The notes beneath the pieces were generated by a model. That model was not told the origin of the DNA, ran no database searches, and worked only from the letters and a program-made list of their open reading frames with translations. A stretch of 57,605 bases of DNA from Amanita rubescens (taxonomy: Eukaryota > Basidiomycota > Agaricomycetes > Agaricales > Amanitaceae): NCBI GenBank assembly GCA_015039365.1, contig WION01000327.1:1-57605 (forward strand), read 5' to 3'. This document shows positions 10,778 to 53,027 of the stretch, in pieces. The position numbers and the translations under genes were made by a program. How positions within the stretch are numbered: position 1 is the first letter of the stretch; each line of letters starts with the position of its first letter.

Positions 10778-12049
10778 ATGGCAGCCACAACTGGTGTACC
10801 TGGATCTTTGAGTAGGCTAATTTATCATTTTATGTGAATCAGCATCTCTAATCCTTGACAATAGCAGATCAAGATGAGACACATCTTCAAATAATCAAAG
10901 AACGCTATCTATGCCCACACTTTCGCATCCTTGTCATTGGGAGGGCTAATGCAGGCAAGACAACCATCCTTGAGAAGGTTTGTGGTGTAGCCAAGGGGAC
11001 AAAGCCCATCATATATGGCAAGGATGGTAAGTCAATCTGAGTTTTGTGCTTCCAAGTTTGGCTGCTGAGTTTCTTGCAGGTAATCAGCTTGAACAGTCTG
11101 TGAATCATTTGATGCCATCAATTGAGGTGAGTCAGATAATGATGTATGGATATACCCATTTACATGCAACAATATCAGAGAGGCCTGCATGATATTGAGC
11201 ATCAAATTACATACCCTGGAAGTAACTTTATCTTCCATGACTCTCAGGGTTTTGAATCTGGTTCAACTGAGGAATTGGAGATTGCTTGGAAGTTCATTGA
11301 AAAGAAGTCTGGAGAAACTGAGCTGAAAAACCAGCTGCATGCAATTTGGTATCTTGCTCTATCCCTTTACAGTACTGGCTGACCTGGCTTCCTCTAGGTA
11401 CTGTATACCCATGGACAGTCCTCGTCCCATTCTACCTGCAGAACTTGAATTCTTCAATGAAGGGACAGGCAGAGGTAAGTCCTAATGAATTCATATCTCA
11501 TCTTGTAACTTCAAGTTGGTTTTGGAGAGATTGGTTATGTTACCTCCTTTCCATTGGCCAACTTGCCACAAATCTACTAGTACTGACTAGTAAATATTTC
11601 CTTTACAGTCCCTTTGGTGGTTATATTCACTAAATTTGATGGTCAAATAGCCAGTGAATATGTCAACTTGACTGATGCAAAGGATGAGGATAAGTGGGAG
11701 AGAGCCAGGGAAATTGCTGAAATCACTTTTCAGAAAGTTTATCTTCCTAAAGTTTCAGATACCAAATATCCTCCCAAGGCATATGTGCAATTGGAAGGTG
11801 AGAATGATGAGGATTTCTTCCTGAAAAACAGGAGTAATGTTGTTTCATAGACATGGATTTACCAGAGAAGAATTGTGCTGAATTAACTCAGAAAACTGCT
11901 GATGCAATAGATGATAACAGCATACATGAGCTGTTTGTTTCAACACAGATGAATAATCTTGACCTTTGTGTTAAATCTGCACTTCAGTGAGGGTCACATT
12001 CACATCTTTGTCACTTACTAACATTGACATTGTTCAGACATGTTCTGAA
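10778..12049 (+). CDS. G-domain (AIG1/dynamin-like P-loop GTPase) protein; 3' end unresolved
   Basis: GTP-binding protein of a family expanded in Agaricomycetes; cellular role unknown. Exons are 10778-10811, 10868-11026, 11080-11126, 11179-11348, 11398-11474, 11609-11797, 11851-11986 and a 12-nt exon at 12038-12049. All splices keep the family reading frame. G1 is GRANAGKT at residues 36-43, G3 is DSQG at 101-104 and G4 is TKFD at 170-173. The C-terminal part (MDLPEKNCAELTQKTADAID, then LFVSTQ) matches the family pattern. I chose the ATG at 10778 because it splices cleanly into NQDETHLQ. After residue ~190 the gene enters the intron-like array, and the next protein-like exon is at 16025. The mature C-terminus is therefore uncertain, and the gene may be broken. 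Confidence 0.75.
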
Positions 12050-13209
12050 GTATAGAGATTGGACATGGAATGATGTCATTATCATAGTTTTTTCAAAATT
12101 TCCACATTTTTGGGTATGCATTTTTGTCAAACTGCACATAGCATAGGAAAATCTAAATGGAAATAGGTGGACAGGGAGGTAGGTGACCTTCATATGGAAT
12201 GATAAATACTTGCAAATGTTCATCAGGTGGTAAGTAACACTCCAATGCCTTCACATGAAAACAAAATTAGTCATGCTTCAGATGGCCAATGAACAACTGA
12301 GTGAAGCACAGGTTAGTCACTGTCACCATATTCAAGTTGGCAGCAGGATCTGATGATATTGATCTCAGTGGGTAAGTGGCATTGGACTACATATAGATCT
12401 GGTATATTGTCTCATGACAACAGTTTGTGAGTAATGCTTCCTTTTGTGATCAGCACTCTTGTCCCATAATCTACAGGAAGTGAGTGACATGACTCAATTT
12501 TGATTTTTGGTAAATGATCCCATGGTGCACCATATGCCAATAGCAAGTGAGTTGATCTATCATTGTAAGCAGACTTGTCAATCCAGTCTCTCATGGACAG
12601 GGAGTGAGTAATACAATGTTCCTTCACACTACATCTGACCTGCTTAAAGAAAGTAAGCAACATTGATGTTTGCACAGCTTATCAGACATACTACTCAATG
12701 AGCAACAGAAAGTTGGTAACATATTATTATCTGAAAGAGAGTCTCAACAAATTTCATTGGATTAATAACAGGAAGTAAGTAACATTTCCTTTCTGTCTGC
12801 TTATAAACATTATATGATGTCCCAAAACAACAGACAGTAAATATTTCTCCTTTTCAAAGTCTCTTCACAAGCTATTGTGAAATAAACAGGATGTATGTGA
12901 TCCTTCTGTGACATGTGAATTCATCATATGAAATACAGCAAAAGAGAGTCAGTGGCATTGTTTTCTTTTTTTTCAACTCCTCATGATACTAATTCATTCT
13001 AAAAGGAAGTGAGTGATGCTGGCCATTTGGCTAGAGGACAATTTGGACACATTATTTTGTTCTACAGATTGTGGGTGATATTGCAAGTTTTGTGAAAAGC
13101 AGTGAAATCACATCTTTTCCTATAAACATAGGAAGGTTAGCAGCATGTCATGCTGATTTAGTGGTTCAAAAGATGACCTTACCAAATTTTCGCCTATGTC
13201 TAACAGTAT
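11987..13209 (+). repeat. Diverged intron-like units, upstream part of the array
   Basis: A chain of 49-74 nt units, each starting with a splice donor (GTGAGT, GTAAGT, GTAAGC, GTATGT, GTCAGT or similar) and ending with an acceptor AG. From 12372 onward donors begin at 12372, 12427, 12480, 12547, 12604, 12653, 12712, 12775, 12837, 12893, 12948, 13009, 13071, 13136 and 13210. The gap from acceptor to next donor is 3 nt in almost every case (TTT, GAA, CAA, GGA, AAA, GAA, ACA, GAT, AGA, GAA, ATT, TAT); before 13136 it is 4 nt. Before 12372 the pattern is looser, though the first intron (11987-12037) has a perfect TACTAAC branch site. Unit bodies share little sequence, so they are old. Confidence 0.8.
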
Positions 13210-15552
13210 GTGAGTGACATTGCACATTTTGTGAAAGGCAGTCTCATCACATCTTTTCCTATGACCAACAGGGAGTGAGTGACATTGCACATTTTGTGAA
13301 AGGCAGTCTCATCACATCTTTTCCTATGACCAACAGGACGTGAGTGACATTGCACATTTTGTGAAAGGCAGTCTCATCACATCTTTTCCTATGACCAACA
13401 GGAAGTGAGTGACATTGCACATTTTGTGAAAGGCAGTCTCATCACATCTTTTCCTATGACCAACAGCTTCGTGAGTGACATTGCACATTTTGTGAAAGGC
13501 AGTCTCATCACATCTTTTCCTATGACCAACAGCGAGTGAGTGACATTGCACATTTTGTGAAAGGCAGTCTCATCACATCTTTTCCTATGACCAACAGCTA
13601 GTGAGTGACATTGCACATTTTGTGAAAGGCAGTCTCATCACATCTTTTCCTATGACCAACAGCTAGTGAGTGACATTGCACATTTTGTGAAAGGCAGTCT
13701 CATCACATCTTTTCCTATGACCAACAGCGAGTGAGTGACATTGCACATTTTGTGAAAGGCAGTCTCATCACATCTTTTCCTATGACCAACAGCTTGTGAG
13801 TGACATTGCACATTTTGTGAAAGGCAGTCTCATCACATCTTTTCCTATGACCAACAGCGAGTGAGTGACATTGCACATTTTGTGAAAGGCAGTCTCATCA
13901 CATCTTTTTCTATGACCAACAGCGAGTGAGTGACATTGCACATTTTGTGAAAGGCAGTCTCATCACATCTTTTCCTATGGCCAACAGATCGTGAGTGACA
14001 TTGCACATTTTGTGAAAGGCAGTCTCATCACATCTTTTCCTATGACCAACAGATCGTGAGTGACATTGCACATTTTGTGAAAGGCAGTCTCATCACATCT
14101 TTTCCTATGACCAACAGCAAGTGAGTGACATTGCACATTTTGTGAAAGGCAGCCTCATCACATCTTTTCCTATGACCAACAGCGAGTGAGTGACATTGCA
14201 CATTTTGTGAAAGGCAGTCTCATCACATCTTTTCCTATGACCAACAGATCGTGAGTGACATTGCACATTTTGCTGAAAGACAGTCTCATCACATCTTTTC
14301 CTATGACCAACAGGATGTGAGTGACATTGCACATTTTGCTGAAAGGCAGTCTCATCACATCTTTTCCTATGACCAACAGGGAGTGAGTGACATTGCACAT
14401 TTTGTGAAAGGCAGTCTCATCACATCTTTTCCTATGACCAACAGGCAGTGAGTGACATTGCACATTTTGTGAAAGGCAGTCTCATCACATCTTTTCCTAT
14501 GACCAACAGCGAGTGAGTAACATTGCACATTTTGTGAAAGGCAGTCTCATCACATCTTTTCCTATGACCAACAGGGAGTGAGTGACATTGCACATTTTGT
14601 GAAAGGCAGTCTCATCACATCTTTTCCTATGACCAACAGGGAGTGAGTGACATTGCACATTTTGTGAAAGGCAGTCTCATCACATCTTTTCCTATGACCA
14701 ACAGCAAGTGAGTGACATTGCACATTTTGTGAAAGGCAGTCTCATCACATCTTTTCCTATGACCAACAGCGAGTGAGTGACATTGCACATTTTGTGAAAG
14801 GCAGTCTCATCACATCTTTTCCTATGACCAACAGCGAGTGAGTGACATTGCACATTTTGTGAAAGGCAGTCTCATCACATCTTTTCCTATGACCAACAGC
14901 GAGTGAGTGACATTGCACATTTTGTGAAAGGCAGTCTCATCACATCTTTTCCTATGACCAACAGGAAGTGAGTGACATTGCACATTTTGTGAAAGGCAGT
15001 CTCATCACATCTTTTCCTATGACCAACAGCAAGTGAGTGACATTGCACATTTTGTGAAAGGCAGTCTCATCACATCTTTTCCTATGACCAACAGATCGTG
15101 AGTGACATTGCACATTTTGTGAAAGGCAGTTTCATCACATCTTTTCCTATGACCAACAGCTCGTGAGCGACATTGCACATTTTGTGAAAGGTAGTCTCAT
15201 CACATCTTTTCCTATGACCAACAGGGAGTGAGTGACATTGCACATTTTGTGAAAGGCAGTCTCATCACATCTTTTCCTATGACCAACAGCTCGTGAGCGA
15301 CATTGCACATTTTGTGAAAGGCAGTCTCATCACATCTTTTCCTATGACCAACAGCGAGTGAGTGACATTGCACATTTTGTGAAAGGCAGTCTCATCACAT
15401 CTTTTCCTATGACCAACAGCGAGTGAGTGACATTGCACATTTTGTGAAAGGCAGTCTCATCACATCTTTTCCTATGACCAACAGCTTGTGAGTGACATTG
15501 CACATTTTGTGAAAGGCAGTCTCATCACATTTTTTCCTATGACCAACAGCTT
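13210..15552 (+). repeat. Homogeneous array of 36 intron-like 65-bp units separated by single-codon triplets
   Basis: Thirty-six tandem units, 65 bp each; three carry one extra base. Every unit starts GTGAGT (two start GTGAGC, at the donors after the CTC triplets), has a body ending TTTTCCTATGACCAACAG, and is followed by a free triplet before the next donor. The 37 bounding segments are CGA x11, GGA x5, ATC x4, CTT x3, CAA x3, CTA x2, CTC x2, GAA x2, and one each of GAC, GAT, GCA, TAT and the 4-mer CTTC. The body is nearly invariant apart from isolated substitutions. TATGACC could serve as branch site. The period is not a multiple of 3, so no open frame runs through the unspliced array. Confidence 0.95.
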
Positions 15553-16024
15553 GTGAGTTCCTTTGCAATTTTTTTGACCTGCATTCTCAGCATACCTCAA
15601 TTCATGAATGTTTGATATATCATTACATCCTATTTACACATATCAGAAAGTGAGCATATTGCCTTATCTTTTCCATGTCATCCTTTTACATTATTATCAT
15701 CATAGAATGTAAGATTTCATTTCAGCTCACCCACTCCCACCTCATGTGATTATTCTGTATTCTCTATCTCATACTACATAACTAGCATGAATTTTTCTCG
15801 ATGTTTGGAAACAGGCAAAGGAACTTTGCAGTCAAGGTGTTTTTCTTTTTTCTTTTTGGGTAATACAAAACTGATGCCATTGCAACAAGCCTACTGGTTG
15901 CCAGGTCTTAGTTTGTAAATCACTCCTTTTCATGTACTGAATTTATGCTTAAACCTTGGAGCAATTATTATCATTGCCAAGCTATCCTTTTGGATCAATA
16001 AACCATTTCTGCCATCAGTCACAG
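15553..16024 (+). repeat. Diverged intron-like units, downstream part of the array
   Basis: After the last homogeneous unit the pattern continues with diverged members. A donor at 15553 leads to an acceptor TATCAG, triplet AAA, then donor GTGAGC at 15650. Next come acceptor CATAG, triplet AAT and donor GTAAGA at 15709. Further AG sites occur around 15815-15835 without a clear 3-nt rule. The last acceptor, CACAG at 16020-16024, precedes a protein-like exon. Confidence 0.65.
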
Positions 16025-16153
16025 AGGCCTTGGATCAATACAAGCAAAAAGGCTATGCTCAGAAGCTGAAGACTGACATTACTCCTGACTTTATGCACTC
16101 TGGTCATCAAGATTTTGTCACATTACTCAATAGGCAGGTGTCTCACATTGATG
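16025..16153 (+). CDS. Candidate downstream exon of the G-domain gene
   Basis: An isolated 129-nt coding-like segment with a clean acceptor (CACAG) before it and a GTATGT donor after it at 16154. In frame it reads ALDQYKQKGYAQKLKTDI and continues with MHSGHQDF. It is hydrophilic, has no stop and stands out from the surrounding AT-rich text. I infer it is the next exon of the G-domain gene beyond the array. The distance (about 4 kb) is long for a fungal intron, so this is tentative. No further exon is found before the transposon block, so the gene may be truncated. Confidence 0.4.
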
Positions 16154-16682
16154 GTATGTGCTTCGTCTAGTCATGCATTAGTTATGAACAATTCATGGCA
16201 GGGTGAAACACACAGTATGATATCCAGTCAGTGATATATTGGCTGCATTGCCTTTGCATTGAGATCATATTTATTTGTACATAGTAGATCACTTCTCATA
16301 TGCATTCTCATATGCATTCCCTTTGTTGTTCATGCATCTGTAATATTTTCTTCCTGATGTACTAGACATTAATGTGGATTACATACCTATATATGTATAA
16401 TTTTTTCCTGGAAGTAAAGATATCACATCAGGATTTTGGCTGGAGTCTGGTATAACTAGATAGTGTTATGATCACGTTGATCTCCACCTATGATGCATCC
16501 ACACTAAGAGCATTTGACAAAGTAGACTAAGTCCAATGGACAAGTCAAACAATAGGTGAATGGATAAGCTAAGTAATAAGATGAGTAGAAGAAGTCTTAT
16601 ACTTGAGAGTAATAATGAACAGAGTATGAATGGTGTTCTTAGGCGAGACAAAGCGATGTTAGCTAACAAACTAGGAGAGTTT
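16154..16682. other. AT-rich non-coding flank of the transposon block
   Basis: No gene seen. It holds a short segment near 16369-16401 (TTAATGTGGATTACATACC and following) that recurs at 22603-22635 on the far side of the repeat block. The last part, from about 16470, may belong to an older repeat split by the LTR element. Confidence 0.4.
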
Positions 16683-16687
16683 GTATT

Positions 16688-17373
16688 TGTAAGGACGGTG
16701 ATCCTAATTGGGACGGAGCCCGGGAACTAAGCCGCGGACGGGGAAGGGTGGAGTATAACGGAGTCCGGGACGTAGTGGGGAAAGGCTAGGCTTCAGCGTG
16801 CAAGCTGCGCCGTGCTAACGTACGTCTTGCCTAAACTTCTGGAGAACGCTCTGGAGTCCAGGATGGAGTCCGGGACCGGAGTCCGAAGGGCGAGCGGTCT
16901 GGATGAGGTTGAGACGATGAAAGACAGGGAGTCAATACGAGTTGGGGCACAATCCAAGTCGATATTCGGACTACTGTATGAATACAAGTGAGGCCTTATA
17001 TACATAGTCCGACAAGGGGTTCTATGGCCGTGTTCTGATAAGCGAGGAAACCATAGAGATATGGAACAGGAAGTGGAGTAGAGCATATGGTACGAAGGGA
17101 TAATGATACCAGTGATACCCAAGATGAAACAAGAGGTGAAACAAGTATGGAAAATATGTAGAAAGGAACTTAGCGAATATGCACGGAGTTGTGACGGAGT
17201 TGTGACGGAGTCCGTCACGGAGTTTGTCACGGAGTTGTCACGGAGTTTTCGGAGTTTTGGCATAGGCTTGATATGAGATGCAACATGGGTGGAAAGTGGT
17301 CATGGGTATAGTCAGGAGTCCATCGGGGTCCGAGGTCATGGAGTTTGGGTGGAGTCTGGAACAGGATATGACA
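16688..17373 (-). repeat. Left LTR (3' LTR of the minus-strand element)
   Basis: A 686-bp LTR starting TGTAAGGACGG and ending GATATGACA on the plus strand. Compared with the right LTR it has an expanded run of GGAGT-TGTGAC/TGTCAC short repeats near 17193-17240. Confidence 0.9.
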
Positions 17374-18362
17374 GTATTCCCCCTTTAAGGCCGAGCCCTC
17401 GAGGCCATTGTCGATGAGAGAATGAGTACGAGGTTCAATAAGTCGCAACAAACATTGCCAAAGAGAGAATGAGAGAGGATGAGGGAGGATAAGAGAGGAC
17501 AAGGGAGGATGTCAGAACAGTGAAGTCCGGAGTTTTTCGGGGTTTTTCGGAGTCCAGAGATGTCCTGTATGGAGGTCTGGGAATTTCCGGAGTTTTTTCG
17601 GGGTTTTTCGGGGTTTTTTCGGAGTTGTTCTGTCAAAGGGAGGTGTCGTATAAGGAGGTGTATGAAGTCTGGAAATTTCGGAGTTTTTTCGGAGTTTTTC
17701 GGGGTTTTTCGGAGTCCAGAGGACCATTGGAGATGGAGGCTGGCATTTGGGAGAAGTTGGGGAAGAAGTCGGATGAAGAAGGAGAAAAAATGGGGTCTGA
17801 AGGAGTGTGGGGTATAGTAGCTGAATGGGTCTGGGGTTTTTTCGGGGCTGTCAAGTAAGTCCGAAAATATTCAGTTACGGTAGTCAGATTAACGTCAGAG
17901 GCGTCAGGCAGCGCTGAGGTCAAGGGGATAGTAGGTAGTCGGAGCCAGAGATTAGGCTTTGACAAGGGGGGATATCCTAGGGGTGTTGGCACCGTAATAT
18001 GACAGAGGTCCGGAATATGGTGATGCTCCATCCGGTCAATCAACGGATTGTGTTGGTGGGGTCATCGGTGTCTGAGAACGAGTGGCAGTTCAGGTCCAAC
18101 GGAAAGAAGAACAATTCACCTGGGGTGAGACAACCAGCAAGTTGGCGTCAGATCCATCCACAAGGTGGAGGCAGATAGGTGATATTGGTTGTATAGGGGT
18201 GAGAGGCGAAGAGATGGGAATGGGGTTGTAACGGAGTCCAAGATAAAAAGCCAAGATAACAAGCAAGTCCGGGTCGTCGAAAATGGCCACATTGAGGTAA
18301 CCACTAGCACTAGTGACTGGAGTCGACGCAACTCCTAGTTAGTGCAATCCAGAGGACGCCAG
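17374..18362. other. Retrotransposon 3' non-coding region
   Basis: Between the polypurine tract and gag. It contains short tandem repeats of the type GGAGTTTTTCGGGG around 17520-17720 and no domain of pol. The frames open here have the composition of these repeats only. Confidence 0.7.
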
Positions 18363-19556
18363 TTATTCGTCTGAGTCAGATGACTCCAATGGGGTCATAT
18401 ACACTGATTCAGAGTCCGAAGTTTTGGAATTTGGGCTGGGGGGTGTGGGGTCCGAAGTTTCGGAGTTTGGACTGGAGGGTGTGGAGTCCGGAATTTCGGG
18501 GTTTGGGCTGGACATTGCAAAGTCCGGAATTTCGGAGTTGGGACTGGAGGGTGTGGAGTCCGAAATTTCGGGGTTTGGACTGGACGGTGCAAAGTCCGGA
18601 GTTTCAGGGTTTGGGATTGGGGAGTTGGGTGATGAATGTGAGACTGAGGAATGAGATCCGGAACTGTGAGTGGAGTGATTGTCGGGGGTAGTGGCAGAAT
18701 GGTCAGTGTCATTGGCAAGTTCATTCTTGGTCAACCAATAAGCCTGATCAATTTGTTGGGCCTTGAGACGCATCTTGACAAGTGTCTTCGGCTTGCCACC
18801 ACGGAGTAATTCAATCCGGATACGAGTCGGGAGTCCACGGAAAAAGTGATCACGGAGTGCCGGTTCATTCCATTCGGTACGAGAAGCGAGTTTGTTGAAG
18901 TCGACAATGTATGTAGTGACATGGTGATGATCCTTCATGGTGAGGTTGCTGAGTGCAGTTTCGGCGTCCCCACGGAAATCGTAAGGTCCGAAATGGTCCG
19001 TGAGCTCTTTGACAAAAGCATTAAAATCATAGAGCCAGTCGGGAATGTCATCAATATCACCCATAATGACAGGTTCAAACCAATCTAAAGCCGCACCTTT
19101 GAGGTAGGAAATCGCATAGCGGACCATCCTTTCATCTTTCCTGAACAAGTCTGGACGGTCTGAGAACACAAGACTGCATGAAACTAGAAATTCTCGGAGT
19201 TTGCTGGGGTCCGTGCCATCAAATGGCTTGGGGTCCGGAATTTCGGCAGATGAAGGGTGCTGGAGTTTTCGGAGTCCACGGTTAAGATTCTGAATGGCGT
19301 TGGCTAGTAGGAGGTTGGAATTCGGAGGGTTGGTTGGTGGAGGAGGATGGTTGTCTTCTTGGCCGGAGTCTGAGATGTCTGTGTGCACGGAGTTGGGCGA
19401 TTTCTCACCTTTGGAGCTGGAGTTTCCGTGTACAGAAGGAGACAACCTGGGCTTGCCTCTGCGACGAAAGAGCACTGAGATTGAAGGGGCAGAGACATTG
19501 GAGATGGCATAACGGCCAACGAGGGAGGGGCCTGTCTTTGATTGAGTGTTGGGCAT
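18363..19556 (-). CDS. Retrotransposon Gag protein
   Basis: A 397-aa protein of the Retrotrans_gag type. I chose the ATG at 19556 (MPNTQSK) just inside the LTR; upstream in-frame codons are non-ATG. The core at about residues 115-260 has KPFDGTDPSKLREFLVSC, then ALDWFEPVI and RGLPTRIRIELL, typical of Ty3/gypsy gag. The C-terminus (roughly residues 290-390) is a low-complexity array of about 11-residue repeats of the type PNPEISDSTPSS. No CCHC zinc knuckle is visible. The frame is intact, so it may be expressed. Confidence 0.85.
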   Translation of the reverse strand: MPNTQSKTGPSLVGRYAISNVSAPSISVLFRRRGKPRLSPSVHGNSSSKGEKSPNSVHTDISDSGQEDNHPPPPTNPPNSNLLLANAIQNLNRGLRKLQHPSSAEIPDPKPFDGTDPSKLREFLVSCSLVFSDRPDLFRKDERMVRYAISYLKGAALDWFEPVIMGDIDDIPDWLYDFNAFVKELTDHFGPYDFRGDAETALSNLTMKDHHHVTTYIVDFNKLASRTEWNEPALRDHFFRGLPTRIRIELLRGGKPKTLVKMRLKAQQIDQAYWLTKNELANDTDHSATTPDNHSTHSSGSHSSVSHSSPNSPIPNPETPDFAPSSPNPEISDSTPSSPNSEIPDFAMSSPNPEIPDSTPSSPNSETSDPTPPSPNSKTSDSESVYMTPLESSDSDE

Positions 19557-19588
19557 GGTTGGACGCACGCGCACAAGTCCGAATATAC

Positions 19589-20240
19589 TGTAAGGACGGT
19601 GATCCTAATTGGGATGGAGCCCGGGAACTAAGCCGCGGACGGGGAAGGGTGGAGTATAACGGAGTCCGGGACGTAGTGGGGAAAGGCTAGGCTTCAGCGT
19701 GCAAGCTGCGCCGTGCTAACGTACGTCTTGCCTAAACTTCTGGAGAACGCTCTGGAGTCCAGGATGGAGTCCGGGACCGGAGTCCGAAGGGCGAGCGGTC
19801 TGGATGAGGTTGAGACGATGAAAGACAGGGAGTCAATACGAGTTGGGGCACAATCCAAGTCGATATTCGGACTACTGTATGAATACAAGTGAGGCCTTAT
19901 ATACGTAGTCCGACAAGGGGTTCTATGGCCGTGTTCTGATAAGCGAGGAAACCATAGAGATATGGAACAGGAAGTGGAGTAGAGCATATGGTACGAAGGG
20001 ATAATGATACCAGTGATACCCGAGATGAAACAAGAGGTGAAACAAGTATGGAAAATATGTAGAAAGGAACTTAGCGAATATGCACGGAGTTGTGACGGAG
20101 TTTGTCACGGAGTTTTCGGAGTTTTGGCATAGGCTTGATATGAGATGCAACATGGGTGGAAAGTGGTCATGGGTATAGTCAGGAGTCCATCGGGGTCCGA
20201 GGTCATGGAGTTTGGGTGGAGTCTGGAACGGGATATGACA
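19589..20240 (-). repeat. Right LTR (5' LTR of the minus-strand element)
   Basis: A 652-bp LTR, nearly identical to the left LTR except for a 34-bp shorter GGAGTTTGTCAC repeat tract. Its plus-strand right end, GATATGACA, is followed by the target-site copy GTATT. Confidence 0.9.
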
Positions 20241-23802: not shown

Positions 23803-24789
23803 CTAGATATATGATTTATGTGTTTGCGCTTTGCTCCAGAACAGATGTGACCACCACTCTCCAGGTAGTTTGACAGGTCTCGTCTTCCTCCCACCCGTGT
23901 TTGGAATCTTGCATTCCTCCAAATACCAAAGATCTTTGACGCCAGCCGATAGCAAATACTCTTTCGTCAAATCATAGTTGAGACCGACTGCGTGTGGACC
24001 ATGTGAATCATCCGACAACGTAAGTCTGCCTCCTTCCTGAAGTATAATCTAATCACGGGCGTTACCCTTCTGACTATATGGACGTGAAGAAAAACTCACC
24101 TCGAGCACGTCTCTTCCCGGATACGGCGTCTTCCAATTCTTCCTAAACGCAGCCGCGTTGACTTCAAACAACGCTCCATACCGTATCGCATACCGGACAT
24201 TTCTCGTCAATTTTTCCAGTGCTCGAGGAAAAGAGGAAAAAACCAGATCGGGGGTGTACAACCGGCATAGATCGATATGGCCGATGATTTCAGGGTGGAA
24301 GCGGTCTAACAGCTCGTATTGTGCGTCGAGATACGATACGAGGAAATCTTCCAGGCTCGAGCGGTCTACGGCCCTCTGGTAGGTCTCCACGTCAAAATCG
24401 ATCGGAATCTCGTTCACGTGGTGCACCGAACCGACGAGGTATTGAATCCTCTCTCCATAGGTTTGGAGAGTGAGATGTAACATGTCCAAGTCTAGGGTAG
24501 TGATGTACTCCGTTTCGAGGCCGACGAGGAGGGAGATTTTGGGTTCGTAGAGAGATTTGAGGCGGTGGGCTTCTTGTACGAAGTCGTTGAATTGTGAAAC
24601 TAGTTGAGTTAGCGCCTGCTCGGACTCTCCTCTCTCCTCTGGATAGAGATCTTGAGATCTGTACCTCGGAACATGTTCAGAAAGGCCGTAAACTTGGAAA
24701 TCGCTTTTTATGGCAGAGAGAACGACTTGCTCAAGATCGCCCTTTGCGTGTTTGCAGAATTGACCCGAGTGAGAGTGTTGACTGATCAT
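23803..24789 (-). CDS. HIS2: Histidinol-phosphatase (PHP family)
   Basis: Removes phosphate from L-histidinol phosphate, the penultimate step of histidine biosynthesis, in the cytosol. Two exons, 24100-24789 and 23803-24036, with a 63-nt intron, give 307 aa, normal for the family. The start is the ATG at 24789, producing MISQHSHSGQFC: the PHP metal motif HxH sits immediately after the start as in other fungal HIS2 proteins. In-frame codons further upstream are non-conserved. Other PHP motifs are GLSEHVPRY, GLETEY, GSVHHVNEIPIDF, IGHIDLCR and, in exon 2, LSDDSHGPHAVG. It is divergent with SSU72, 227 nt apart. Confidence 0.93.
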
Positions 24790-25016
24790 TTGTTTACATT
24801 TGTTTGTTTGTCTCTCACTCTTTCCCAGGTACATTCCATTTCTCTGTTCTTTTGGACGAACGTGATGATTCAGAGTGGAAACTGTCATCAACCCAATCTT
24901 GGGGTTGCAAAGATGACCACATTGTTCTAGATACTGCTGATTTTCTTCTGTCTTCGAGCCTTGTTTCGTAACAGAAGCCTTCGCTAACTGGGTCTTTTTC
25001 TTTTTTGCTTAGGAAC
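24790..25016. promoter_or_regulatory. Shared divergent promoter of HIS2 and SSU72
   Basis: 227 nt separate the two ATGs. No clear TATA box. On the SSU72 side a pyrimidine tract (TCTTTTTCTTTTTTGCTTAG) lies just before the ATG and could instead be the end of a 5'UTR intron. Confidence 0.5.
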
Positions 25017-29906: not shown

Positions 29907-30530
29907 TCAATGCCCATATACCTGCTCTGCTAACATGCGCAACGTCATCGGCATCATATTATCGTTGTAATGTTCTTGAATATCCGGCTTCTCCACGACA
30001 TGATGAATGCAGGACCATTTCGTTTTGTCTACCGCGCGCTCCTCACAAACCCTACGTTTCTCTGCATTCCACCACTTTGGCAAAACACCAGTCCTGCTCT
30101 CGGCAAGGTTGAGAAAGGAATGAAAGTCGAGTATGGGATTCTTGGGCTCGCCATATAAGCCGTGACATTCGCCCCGATACATACAGTCGTCCTTGACGCG
30201 CAGTCTGTATGCGTCAATCAACCGGTTCATCGCTTCCTTCTGTGTCGGGACGGTATCGAGATAGATGTTGGTTGCAAGCGCCTCAATCAGGCACTGAAAC
30301 TTGTGGTACCGCTTCCAGTCTGCAGATTGACACTCGCGCGAACAATAGAGGGCGTCGCGGCAGTGGGAGCACACTTTGAGCTTCTGCTTTGCAGTGGGGG
30401 TCTTTGGTTCGCGTTTTTTGCAGTGGCGGCATGCACGCTTAGCCTTCCCTGGGTTTTTAGGGAGAGGAAAGCCGAGCTCTGCTGCGATCCTCTCTTGAGC
30501 TGCTGCGATCCTCTCCTGAAAATTGCTCAT
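29907..30530 (-). CDS. MYND zinc-finger protein, copy 1
   Basis: 207 aa, single exon. The start is the ATG at 30530 (MSNFQERIAAAQ), matching the position of the start in the paralogue; in-frame sequence upstream does not look coding. The MYND finger at about residues 34-80 has the expected Cys/His spacing: CRHCKKRE, CSHCRDALYCSRECQ, ADWKRYHKFQC. The C-terminal half is conserved with copy 2 (AMNRLIDAYRLRVKDD, TGVLPKWWN, MPMTLRMLAEQVYG). MYND fingers mediate protein-protein contacts, often in transcriptional repression, but the partner is unknown here. It lies between the two inverted family A genes. Confidence 0.85.
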   Translation of the reverse strand: MSNFQERIAAAQERIAAELGFPLPKNPGKAKRACRHCKKREPKTPTAKQKLKVCSHCRDALYCSRECQSADWKRYHKFQCLIEALATNIYLDTVPTQKEAMNRLIDAYRLRVKDDCMYRGECHGLYGEPKNPILDFHSFLNLAESRTGVLPKWWNAEKRRVCEERAVDKTKWSCIHHVVEKPDIQEHYNDNMMPMTLRMLAEQVYGH

Positions 30531-30684
30531 CCTGGAAGTCTTATAGAAACTGAAATGCAACAGGTGAACACGCTTACAGTTAATGACGAAATGTAGTTTG
30601 TACGTATTTGGATCCAACTTTAGCTTTCGCGCCATTTCAGAACTGAGAGAGACGCGGGGCTAAACCCCTGAATCTTCATTCATC

Positions 30685-32227: not shown

Positions 32228-32355
32228 TCTACATCACCATTTCCGATGATCTGCCACCCTGAATGTGGGAAACTCATGCCATTACATATTCTTTCTCAAC
32301 TCGAGGCCAACACGCTCACCTCCTTGCGTCTCCAGCTCGCAGATCTTCTTTCAAC

Positions 32356-33030
32356 ATGGACGACTCTAACCTCCTTTTCGCCAAAATGCTCGCAGAGGAC
32401 CTCGACCTCCCTTTCGACTCGTCCTTTCTAGAACCCATATGTGCCCATTGCCGAAAACGCGAACCGGAGAACGCCACCAGGGAGCAAAAGCTCCTAAAAT
32501 GCTCTCGTTGCCAAGACACCCTCTACTGTTCGCGCGAGTGTCAAGTCGCAGACTGGAAGCGTGGTCACAAAGTGAAATGCAAACTCATAGTGTCCGCGAA
32601 CAAAGCTTTCAACGAAGCTGTCCAAAGAGAGGAGGAGGAGGTGATGCCGTCTAGCCCAAACATCTCTTACCTGGATTCCATCCCGACAGAGGAGGAAGCG
32701 ATGGACCGACTCATCGATGCGTACAGACTGCGCGTTGAGGACGATTATGTCTACAAGGGTGACAATCGCGGTTTATATGGGTTAGAGGACCCATACCCCG
32801 ACTTTCGTCATTTTCTCAACCTCGCCGAGAAAAGGACAGGTGTCTTGCCAAAGTGGTGGAACAAAAAAAAGCGCAAGGAATGCGAGAGGCGTGCGCTCAA
32901 TGAGGATAACTGGTGTTGTATTTCGTATGCCGTCGAAAAATCGGATATCCAGGAACACTACAAGGATAATTTCATGCCGATGACGTTGCGGATGTTGGCG
33001 GAGAAGATATATGGGCAAAGTTTGATGTGA
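32356..33030 (+). CDS. MYND zinc-finger protein, copy 2
   Basis: 224 aa, single exon, start ATG at 32356 (MDDSNLLFAKML). The MYND finger is intact: CAHCRKRE, CSRCQDTLYCSRECQ, ADWKRGHKVKC. The C-terminal half shares AMDRLIDAYRLRVEDD, RTGVLPKWWN and MPMTLRMLAEKIYG with copy 1, while the N-terminus before the finger is unrelated. The copies are more diverged from each other than the two family A genes are, so the pair probably did not duplicate in one step, or the MYND genes evolve faster. Confidence 0.87.
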   Translation: MDDSNLLFAKMLAEDLDLPFDSSFLEPICAHCRKREPENATREQKLLKCSRCQDTLYCSRECQVADWKRGHKVKCKLIVSANKAFNEAVQREEEEVMPSSPNISYLDSIPTEEEAMDRLIDAYRLRVEDDYVYKGDNRGLYGLEDPYPDFRHFLNLAEKRTGVLPKWWNKKKRKECERRALNEDNWCCISYAVEKSDIQEHYKDNFMPMTLRMLAEKIYGQSLM

Positions 33031-51900: not shown

Positions 51901-51986
51901 CGTCGGGGTGATATCGTGGGACCTCGGATCAGCCTATATGACGATCCGATTCCGCGTTTCCCACGCTCTGCTACTTGCTGTTCGCC

Positions 51987-53027
51987 ATGTCGACGATGCG
52001 GTCAAGAATGGAGGAGTTTATCTACTCTCTGCAAGACGAGATAGTATCCTCTCTCGAAAACCTCGATCCGTCCGCACCACCCTTTCTCAGGGATGCTTGG
52101 CAGCGCCCTAAAGGCGGTTCAGGCAAATCTTGTGTCTTCTCCAGCCAATCACCCAACACCATCCTCGAAAAAGCGGGAGTGAACATCTCTATAGTCTACG
52201 GCACTCTCCCACCAGCAGCAATCAAGCAGATGCGCGCAGATCACACCTCTATCCCACTCCAAGAAGGTCCCGAGGGCCTCCCTTACTATGCTGCCGGAAT
52301 CAGCCTTGTTATCCATCCCAGAAACCCTCACGCACCAACCGTACACGCAAACTACCGCTACTTTGAAATAACAGAATCTTCTACTTCTGAGTCTACCCCC
52401 AAAATCATCACATGGTGGTTCGGAGGAGGTTCAGACCTCACTCCTTCCTATCTCTACGAAGAAGACGCAATCCACTTCCACTCGACGATCAAAGCGGCCT
52501 GCGATTCGCATGGAACCTTGTTATACCCCGCTTTCAAAAAATGGTGCGACGAGTACTTTTACATCACTCATCGCGGAGAGTCGAGAGGTATCGGAGGATT
52601 CTTCTTTGACGATCTTCACGACGGCGAGCATAAACGCATACCTTCTTCCTCCGTCTCTTCGCCTGCCACGCCTCCCGACCGTCCGCGAACGGCAGATGAA
52701 ATATTTGCTTTCATCCAAGACGCAGGTCGCGCGTTCCGCCCTTCCTACCTCCCCATCCTCTCAAAGCGCCACGCTATGCCATACACAGATCATCATCGCC
52801 GATGGCAGCTCCTCCGTCGCGGACGATACGTAGAGTTTAACCTTGTGATCGACCGTGGGACCAAGTTTGGGCTGAATACGCCTGGAGCGAGGATCGAGAG
52901 TATTTTGATGAGCTTACCGGAGACGGCGAGGTGGGAATATATGTCTGATTTGGGACAGGAGGAAGGGACGGAGGAAGCAAATTTGTTGAAGGTTTTAAAG
53001 GAGCCCAGAGATTGGGTAGGGGTATGA
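51987..53027 (+). CDS. HEM13: Coproporphyrinogen III oxidase (oxygen-dependent)
   Basis: Converts coproporphyrinogen III to protoporphyrinogen IX by two oxidative decarboxylations in haem synthesis. 346 aa, single exon, rare for this window. The ATG at 51987 (MSTMRSRMEEFIYSLQDEI) matches the usual fungal start; upstream codons in frame are non-ATG. Conserved blocks are GGSGKSCVF, GISLVIHPRNPHAPTVHANYR, WWFGGGSDLTPSYL, KKWCDEYFYITHRGE, RGIGGFFFDDL, RGRYVEFNLVIDRGTKFGL and ESILMSLPETARWEY. There is no evident mitochondrial presequence, consistent with the cytosolic fungal enzyme. A Ser/Pro insertion (SSSVSSPATPPD) replaces a shorter loop. Confidence 0.95.
   Translation: MSTMRSRMEEFIYSLQDEIVSSLENLDPSAPPFLRDAWQRPKGGSGKSCVFSSQSPNTILEKAGVNISIVYGTLPPAAIKQMRADHTSIPLQEGPEGLPYYAAGISLVIHPRNPHAPTVHANYRYFEITESSTSESTPKIITWWFGGGSDLTPSYLYEEDAIHFHSTIKAACDSHGTLLYPAFKKWCDEYFYITHRGESRGIGGFFFDDLHDGEHKRIPSSSVSSPATPPDRPRTADEIFAFIQDAGRAFRPSYLPILSKRHAMPYTDHHRRWQLLRRGRYVEFNLVIDRGTKFGLNTPGARIESILMSLPETARWEYMSDLGQEEGTEEANLLKVLKEPRDWVGV

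Follow-up and report, generated by a model that had tools for sequence, protein, structure and literature searches.

The linker that joins the two domains of a GTPase of Amanita rubescens is very probably written one codon per exon, and from homology and constraint we predict that it is spliced codon by codon into the mRNA. The window, the whole stretch of 57,605 nucleotides that was analysed, is part of the 75.7-Mb Amanita rubescens assembly, and the tandem array that it contains lies inside a GTPase gene (RILVIGRANAGKTT). This 36-unit array is the youngest part of a longer ladder of one-codon exons, which starts near 12167, about 1 kb upstream of the array, with strongly diverged introns. 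The exon layout of the locus is as follows.

10778..12113, + strand: ordinary 5' exons of the host GTPase gene, chosen by eye (10778-10811, 10865-11026, 11080-11126, 11179-11348, 11398-11474, 11609-11797, 11851-11986 and 12038-12113)
12167-12178, + strand: short exon VDRE, from splice decoding without protein input
12227-12229, + strand: one-codon exon V, from the same decoding
12282-12311, + strand: short exon MANEQLSEAQ, from the same decoding
12369..13209, + strand: older ladder of 15 consecutive single-codon positions, from splice decoding
13210..15549, + strand: young array of 36 near-identical introns of 62-63 nt, GTGAGT...CAACAG, from TRF and parsing
13207..15552, + strand: variable one-codon exons of the young array, from parsing and decoding
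Codons of the young array, part 1: TAT GGA GAC GAA CTTC (4 nt) CGA CTA CTA CGA CTT CGA CGA ATC ATC CAA CGA ATC GAT
Codons of the young array, part 2: GGA GCA CGA GGA GGA CAA CGA CGA CGA GAA CAA ATC CTC GGA CTC CGA CGA CTT CTT
15647..15708, + strand: last one-codon exons K (15647-15649) and N (15706-15708), from decoding
15786..16170, + strand: ordinary 3' exons, borders inferred by eye from reading frames
15786-15836, + strand: 3' exon HEFFSMFGNRQRNFAVK
15890-15914, + strand: 3' exon PTGCQVLV
15962-16170, + strand: 3' exon IIIIAKLSFW...HIDGMCFV, ending in a stop

Joined together, the eight ordinary 5' exons form one open frame of 297 amino acids, ending ...VFSKFPHFW at 12113, and a hand-typed translation of the first seven is 93% identical to the NCBI protein P0001 of Amanita rubescens. 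The three short exons at 12167-12311 have counterparts in two homologues, VGRD-E-MANKQLSEAQ in P0046 and VDRAVTNEQLSETK in P0005. At the other end of the gene, the C-terminus of P0052 matches 15940-16149 (tblastn), and many paralogues share a ladder end that reads L-K-I or L-K-N. The automatic decoder put the two final exons of the window in the wrong place, and it replaced the 4-nt exon at 13132 with a false CAT at 13144. Elsewhere in the window lie GAGTCCG-type tandem repeats (17182-18615), a Ty3-type retrotransposon gag domain (18366-19604, minus strand) and Pfam matches to a PHP domain, two MYND-finger proteins and a coproporphyrinogen III oxidase, in the regions 24052-25008 (-), 29910-30659 (-), 32263-33027 (+) and 51942-53024 (+).

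Tandem-repeat analysis of the young array returned a 65-bp period at 13210-15572 with 36.3 copies and 96% matches. The sequence-only reading had described 36 intron-like units of this period, and parsing recovers them all at 13210-15549; they measure 62 nt in 34 cases and 63 nt in the remaining two, and 26 of the 36 are identical to the consensus GTGAGT...CAACAG. Its counts of the spacers were equally borne out: exactly 3 nt separate the units with the exception of one 4-mer (CTTC, 13467-13470), and the triplets take 12 different values, none of them a stop codon, if the first spacer TAT (13207) is counted. The near-invariance of the unit bodies holds for the young array only, as introns in older arrays of the family are 80-90% identical to each other. 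Apart from CTTC, the window copy carries a second 4-nt exon (GAAG, 13132-13135), and both positions are 3 nt long in the near-copies L009 and L015. The window copy may therefore be disabled or misassembled; unless the two 4-nt exons are assembly errors, its frame is broken.

The older ladder follows a strict grammar of an AG, one codon and a GTRAGT, with strongly diverged introns mostly 46-64 nt long. Between 12114 and 13207, AG-N3-GTRAG occurs nine times, and the same motif with any other spacing from 0 to 12 does not occur at all; in 2000 Markov shuffles the 3-nt form had a mean of 0.18 and a maximum of 3. A splice decoder that used no protein information placed 15 one-codon exons in this segment, whereas none of 100 shuffles yielded more than 3 and none of 88 other segments of the window more than 2. 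The introns here are better called strongly diverged than unrelated to the young body, since five of the 15 outscore every shuffle when compared with it, one of them clearly (25.5).

Decoded codon by codon, the older ladder reads W F E Q G K K E T D R E I (x) Y, written WFEQGKKETDREI.Y, where the position before Y is GAAG in the window and AAG in L009 and L015. At the same place, after FPHFWV..., the homologue P0005 has WFEKGKKESDREIEY, within a longer stretch ...WFEKGKKESDREIEYDG, and P0046 has WFEHGKKDTDKQIVY, within ...VGRDEMANKQLSEAQWFEHGKKDTDKQIVYDG. The core of the window is identical to the intron-free P0005 at 12 of 15 positions and to the intron-free P0046 at 10 of 15, scores that none of 200,000 shuffles reached in either comparison. 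This agreement is a property of the family, as at least nine of the 15 core codons are identical to P0005 in 32 of 34 loci. Both homologues are encoded on short JGI contigs that we infer to be cDNA, because they are open through a region that holds seven introns in the window gene; their source genes may or may not carry the ladder themselves. Beyond the core, the amino-acid vocabulary of the P0005 tail favours the ladder over ordinary exons by +19.8 bits, where ordinary windows score -17.1 or lower; for the P0046 tail the fit is weaker (+7.8 bits, ordinary windows -4.5 or lower). A search with the P0005 tail matched P0005, P0046 and P0002 only. The P0046 tail departs from the expected frame after YDG.

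Among the options raised beforehand was the insertion of a variable string of codons, one per exon, and this option now has strong support, as the older part decodes to a peptide of the homologues and the ladder is under both coding and splicing constraint. The same reading had also considered a recursively spliced super-intron, in which the units would be removed serially, the triplets lost and the ladder left untranslated. As such recursion would have it, every junction creates a fresh donor 3 nt further on; however, the triplets avoid stops and those at 12369-13209 encode conserved residues, and zero-exon AG|GT sites number only 21 against 563 at a spacing of 3 nt in 12 loci, so that we regard this account as scarcely credible. 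A single 4-kb splice is disfavoured by the same conserved residues. What survives of the recursion idea is an altered form without triplet loss: the donor recreated 3 nt past each junction could let sequential splicing resolve the steric problem that a 3-nt exon would pose. A stwintron arrangement was considered and rejected, as complete GT...AG introns stand side by side, 3 nt apart, and none is nested within the splice signal of another.

To follow the structure through the genome, we took the window, 14 further contigs bearing the 65-mer and 20 paralogues selected because they have the exons on both sides. The 65-mer has 476 matches in the genome, and consecutive pairs of the form ACAG-NNN-GTGAGT number 2361 genome-wide, whereas the reversed control pattern gives 0. 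The FPHFW exon is present in 34 of the 35 loci, the window included, and all 34 of these carry a ladder. Thirteen of the 14 fetched 65-mer contigs contain this exon; the exception, L017, is cut by the contig end and overlaps a match to the 3' exon of the family. The exon region has 94 listed matches in the genome, and the 34 FPHFW loci were decoded. In 33 of these (L018 left out), 3-nt exons make up 1808 of the 1931 that were decoded, and ladder introns are mostly 46-73 nt. The longest runs of consecutive one-codon exons comprise 78 (L023), 76 (L011 and L020) and 73 (L041) exons.

Individual members depart from this plan in several ways. All 15 core exons are 3 nt long in 30 of the 34 loci, the odd core exons being found in L027, L028, L038 and L039. 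L029 and L039 are without most of the conserved core and have variable codons in its place, which suggests that the ladder can invade the conserved part. L043, a more distant relative, has ladder-like units upstream of its C-terminal exons. On contig C124, about 1.7 kb interrupts the array of L018 between two unit blocks. In L040 and L041 (contigs C332 and C8) there is another type of young intron, about 53 nt long, whose right half alternates between two versions, and the linker of L041, judged by eye, resembles a coiled coil. A ladder stretch of about 8.5 kb at G000:C3:127059-135641, in which AAA codons are frequent, is longer than any that was decoded. In the second half of L010 (contig C749), many spacers are 2, 1 or 0 nt long and most intron bodies are still perfect; the assembly may have collapsed arrays that differ in their codons here, or the copy may be free of constraint.

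Coding constraint is most apparent in the absence of stops. Among 939 variable codons from 24 non-duplicate loci there is no stop, where 48.5 would be expected under positional independence; for this test and the NAG test, 24 of the 34 loci were used and L009, L014, L015, L018, L020, L024, L026, L027, L035 and L040 were dropped. Across all 1808 triplets a single TGA was found (L027). Within the ladder, codons for E, K and Q are NAA rather than NAG at a ratio of 258:2, compared with 29:31 in the ordinary exons of the window gene (P=4e-24). NAG codons would be avoided because a NAG right behind the acceptor could itself serve as an acceptor and compete with it.

Constraint on splicing is seen in the spacing and in the splice sites. 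In the same 12 loci, the 563 cases at a spacing of 3 nt compare with 0-21 cases at each other spacing. When diverged units were located by their interior sequence, GT was kept in 99-100% and AG in 96-97%, compared with 87% for the interiors; these fractions are slightly raised, as a unit was counted only if its flanks matched at 5 or more of 9 positions (left) or 4 or more of 7 (right). The one-codon exons of the core differ by 7.8%, compared with 14.3% for intron interiors, in 21 of the 34 loci (the set drops L009, L014, L015, L020, L022, L024, L026, L027, L029, L035, L038, L039 and L041). In this set none of 273 core exons deviates from 3 nt, a result that is partly by choice, since the dropped loci include L027, L038 and L039 with their odd exons. 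Third codon positions of the core vary less than positions 1 and 2 (0.044 vs 0.095), which is not the classical coding pattern and is attributed to the neighbourhood of the splice site.

The variable part behaves differently from pair to pair. Between L025 and L026, only 2 of 123 one-codon exon bases changed (1.6%), compared with 4.1% of intron bases plus 83 gap columns. In the three other aligned pairs the codons changed more than the introns, at 8.4 vs 3.5% in L023/L024, 3.6 vs 2.3% in L035/L036 and 27.6 vs 2.1% in L040/L041. As codons outpace introns in three of four pairs, the variable part is not generally under purifying selection.

We weighed these constraints against an inert minisatellite within one long intron, where the exon ending at 12113 would be joined directly to about 15786. 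Public annotation lends this account some colour: of 11 Amanita rubescens gene models examined, seven (P0001, P0003, P0009, P0010, P0015, P0018 and P0021) end before the FPHFW exon; among the public models of the family, those of P0002 and P0028 run slightly past the ladder start, and P0089 joins across the linker. The young arrays also resemble a VNTR. However, the older triplets encode residues of spliced homologues, the splice sites, the spacing, the freedom from stops and the avoidance of NAG all show constraint, and P0052, P0053, P0121 and P0122 hold a linker at this place, which together make an inert repeat very improbable.

These four proteins are intron-free, full-length homologues, and their linkers at the ladder position differ widely, while the rest of the proteins is similar. 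In structure predictions, the position of the ladder corresponds to a linker, predicted to be disordered, that connects the G domain with a helical domain. The P0121 model is confident in the G domain and the C-terminal helices; residues 315-359 have pLDDT values below 50, and the linker values are 36-39. Foldseek returned 21 matches at E<=0.001, which are structures of Irga6/IIGP1, GM4951, IniA and DRP1, with TM-scores of only 0.20-0.42, so that the predicted likeness to immunity-related (IRG) GTPases, whose fold combines a G domain with a helical domain, is a hint and no family assignment. The best Pfam match is MMR_HSR1 in 29 of 34 members, the A1 profile gave one weak match, and P0052 has no sequence match in the PDB.

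The codons of the young arrays turn over quickly between gene copies. The window, L013, L021 and L031 are 98.4-99.4% identical in the upstream region and 99.0-99.2% in the older ladder, and they share the same intron body, yet they carry mutually unrelated codon strings. Upstream, L009 and L015 show no difference over 1200 bp, and within the array they differ in two adjacent codons. Codon diversity is already full in the youngest arrays: the per-site codon difference is 0.33-0.74 whether the intron bodies are identical or 20% diverged. An alignment of codon strings across loci, some of them shortened by the decoder (L018, L024, L030, L033, L037 and L040), revealed no convincing sharing outside near-copy groups. 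The two best cross-group pairs were reached in 1.5% and 0.5% of 200 shuffles, and they are the best of several hundred pairs.

Artefacts of assembly or polishing in a repetitive array might be held responsible for this diversity, and odd spacers of 2 or 4 nt in L010, L021 and L022, as well as the two 4-nt spacers of the window, would agree with it. Against this, long codon strings recur on separate contigs (window, L009 and L015; L011, L014 and L020; L025, L026 and L027) and arrays with diverged introns share the structure, which renders an artefact extremely improbable. Introners, stwintrons and recursive splicing are known sources of near-identical short introns or of one intron beside another, and the ladder bodies do share an introner-like feature, being near-identical within young arrays and between loci. 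A second hallmark of introners is their dispersal through many unrelated genes. A burst of a mobile intron into every codon boundary of an ordinary linker exon would leave old codons between new bodies. Such a burst fits the codon diversity that does not rise with intron divergence, as well as the conserved core residues that form a contiguous peptide in the homologues. It is nevertheless improbable, as paralogues that share the body and are 98-99% identical in their flanks have unrelated codon strings and different lengths, and the array bodies that were checked are confined to the GTPase family (14 of 14 fetched array contigs, out of 476 matches).

Two patterns fit the copying of units together with short-tract gene conversion, as far as the sequences tell. 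In L020, codon identity correlates with the variant of the neighbouring intron (P=0.001), although block duplications may inflate the test, and in L023/L024 the introns before changed codons are more mismatched than others (4.4 vs 1.7, P=0.0001). The identical introns probably let recombination duplicate, delete and swap codons in frame. Recombination accounts for the shuffling of codons, not for the equal diversity of arrays with identical and with 20% diverged introns, and the origin of that diversity is possibly strong diversifying selection on ordinary mutations or a process focused on the junctions. A process of the latter kind, for example a nuclease with fill-in at unit ends, would rewrite the 3-nt junctions independently of the introns. 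It would agree with triplet differences per site that exceed intron differences 34-44-fold in six of 34 loci and 3-14-fold in the other 28, saturated in every age class, and with the clustering of non-3-nt spacers in L010, where most bodies are intact. The linkage of codons to intron variants in L020 and their joint change in L023/L024 are instead as copying predicts, and L010 may be a collapsed assembly; we consider junction rewriting unlikely, though the least unlikely of the rival accounts.

We postulate that the one-codon exons of the linker could be joined as follows. The short introns (about 62 nt) would be recognised one by one through intron definition, and the removal of each would join the growing exon to the next codon plus its donor, so that 50-80 sequential splices would build the linker. 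As every exon is a single phase-0 codon, a unit that is skipped, gained, lost or swapped keeps the frame. Among near-identical young introns, unequal crossing-over and short-tract conversion would duplicate, delete and exchange single codons in frame, and the linker of each copy would change fast while the GTPase stays the same. More tentatively, at somewhat under an even chance, the whole may act as a single-codon diversification system, in which recombination would use the identical introns that surround each codon of the GTPase linker as handles, codons would be gained, lost and swapped in frame between dozens of copies, and exon skipping would multiply the linkers, to give the mushroom a rapidly renewable repertoire of recognition GTPases.

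Fungal WD40 and TPR repeat proteins are a familiar case of repeats that are homogenised while selected codons are hypervariable. There the homogenised repeat codes for protein, whereas in the ladder the homogenised repeat is the intron and the codon is the sole coding part. The micro-exon genes (MEG) of Schistosoma consist of many tiny and mostly frame-neutral exons, encode variable proteins and are hard to annotate automatically (PMC10526429). They have 10-20 exons of 6-81 bp (3-81 in the abstract), mostly 15, with introns of 0.1-5 kb, and their products are secreted (PMC10526429). The ladder likewise builds a protein region from many frame-neutral exons shorter than about 80 nt; it differs in having up to 78 consecutive 3-nt exons and often identical introns of about 62 nt inside a GTPase, and no introns of 0.1-5 kb. 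In aphids, the bicycle and megacycle genes are reported, in the excerpted text, to encode fast-evolving proteins from many micro-exons, of which the megacycle gene has more than 100 (PMC9168663). Bicycle genes average about 17 exons, nearly all starting in phase 2 according to the same excerpt (PMC9168663), whereas the one-codon exons of the ladder are in phase 0. The excerpted descriptions speak of small exons, without one-codon exons or tandem identical introns (PMC9168663).

That a 3-nt exon can be spliced is documented for Drosophila homothorax and mouse Ncam in the accessible passages of two papers (PMC7392893, PMC8042270); the exons described there are isolated, whereas those of the ladder stand in runs. 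In Cryptococcus, near-identical introns within one gene were ascribed to unequal crossing-over, conversion or slippage (PMC2395259, available text). That text concerns two gained introns in one gene and does not mention one-codon exons (PMC2395259). The Trichoderma gene Xlr2 has a functional microexon that acts as a switch, and the abstract states that none functional had been described earlier in filamentous fungi (PMC11121469). Xlr2 has one microexon and the ladder has long runs. Within the literature covered, which includes few subscription journals and some sources in part, neither runs of one-codon exons nor introns homogenised around single codons are described. On this partial coverage, the one-codon exon ladder is rated as a new kind, with the micro-exon gene as the nearest known kind.

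Gene predictors can miss linkers of this type, and how codons turn over faster than the surrounding introns is a testable question. If transcripts confirm the predicted splicing, a coding exon of the least possible length would recur in unbroken runs of up to 78, and would do so in dozens of genes within a single genome. The ladder would then test how the spliceosome handles 3-nt exons by sequential intron definition. It would also mean that the unit homogenised in a repeat gene can be an intron instead of a protein domain, and that a protein can be changed one whole codon at a time without a frameshift.
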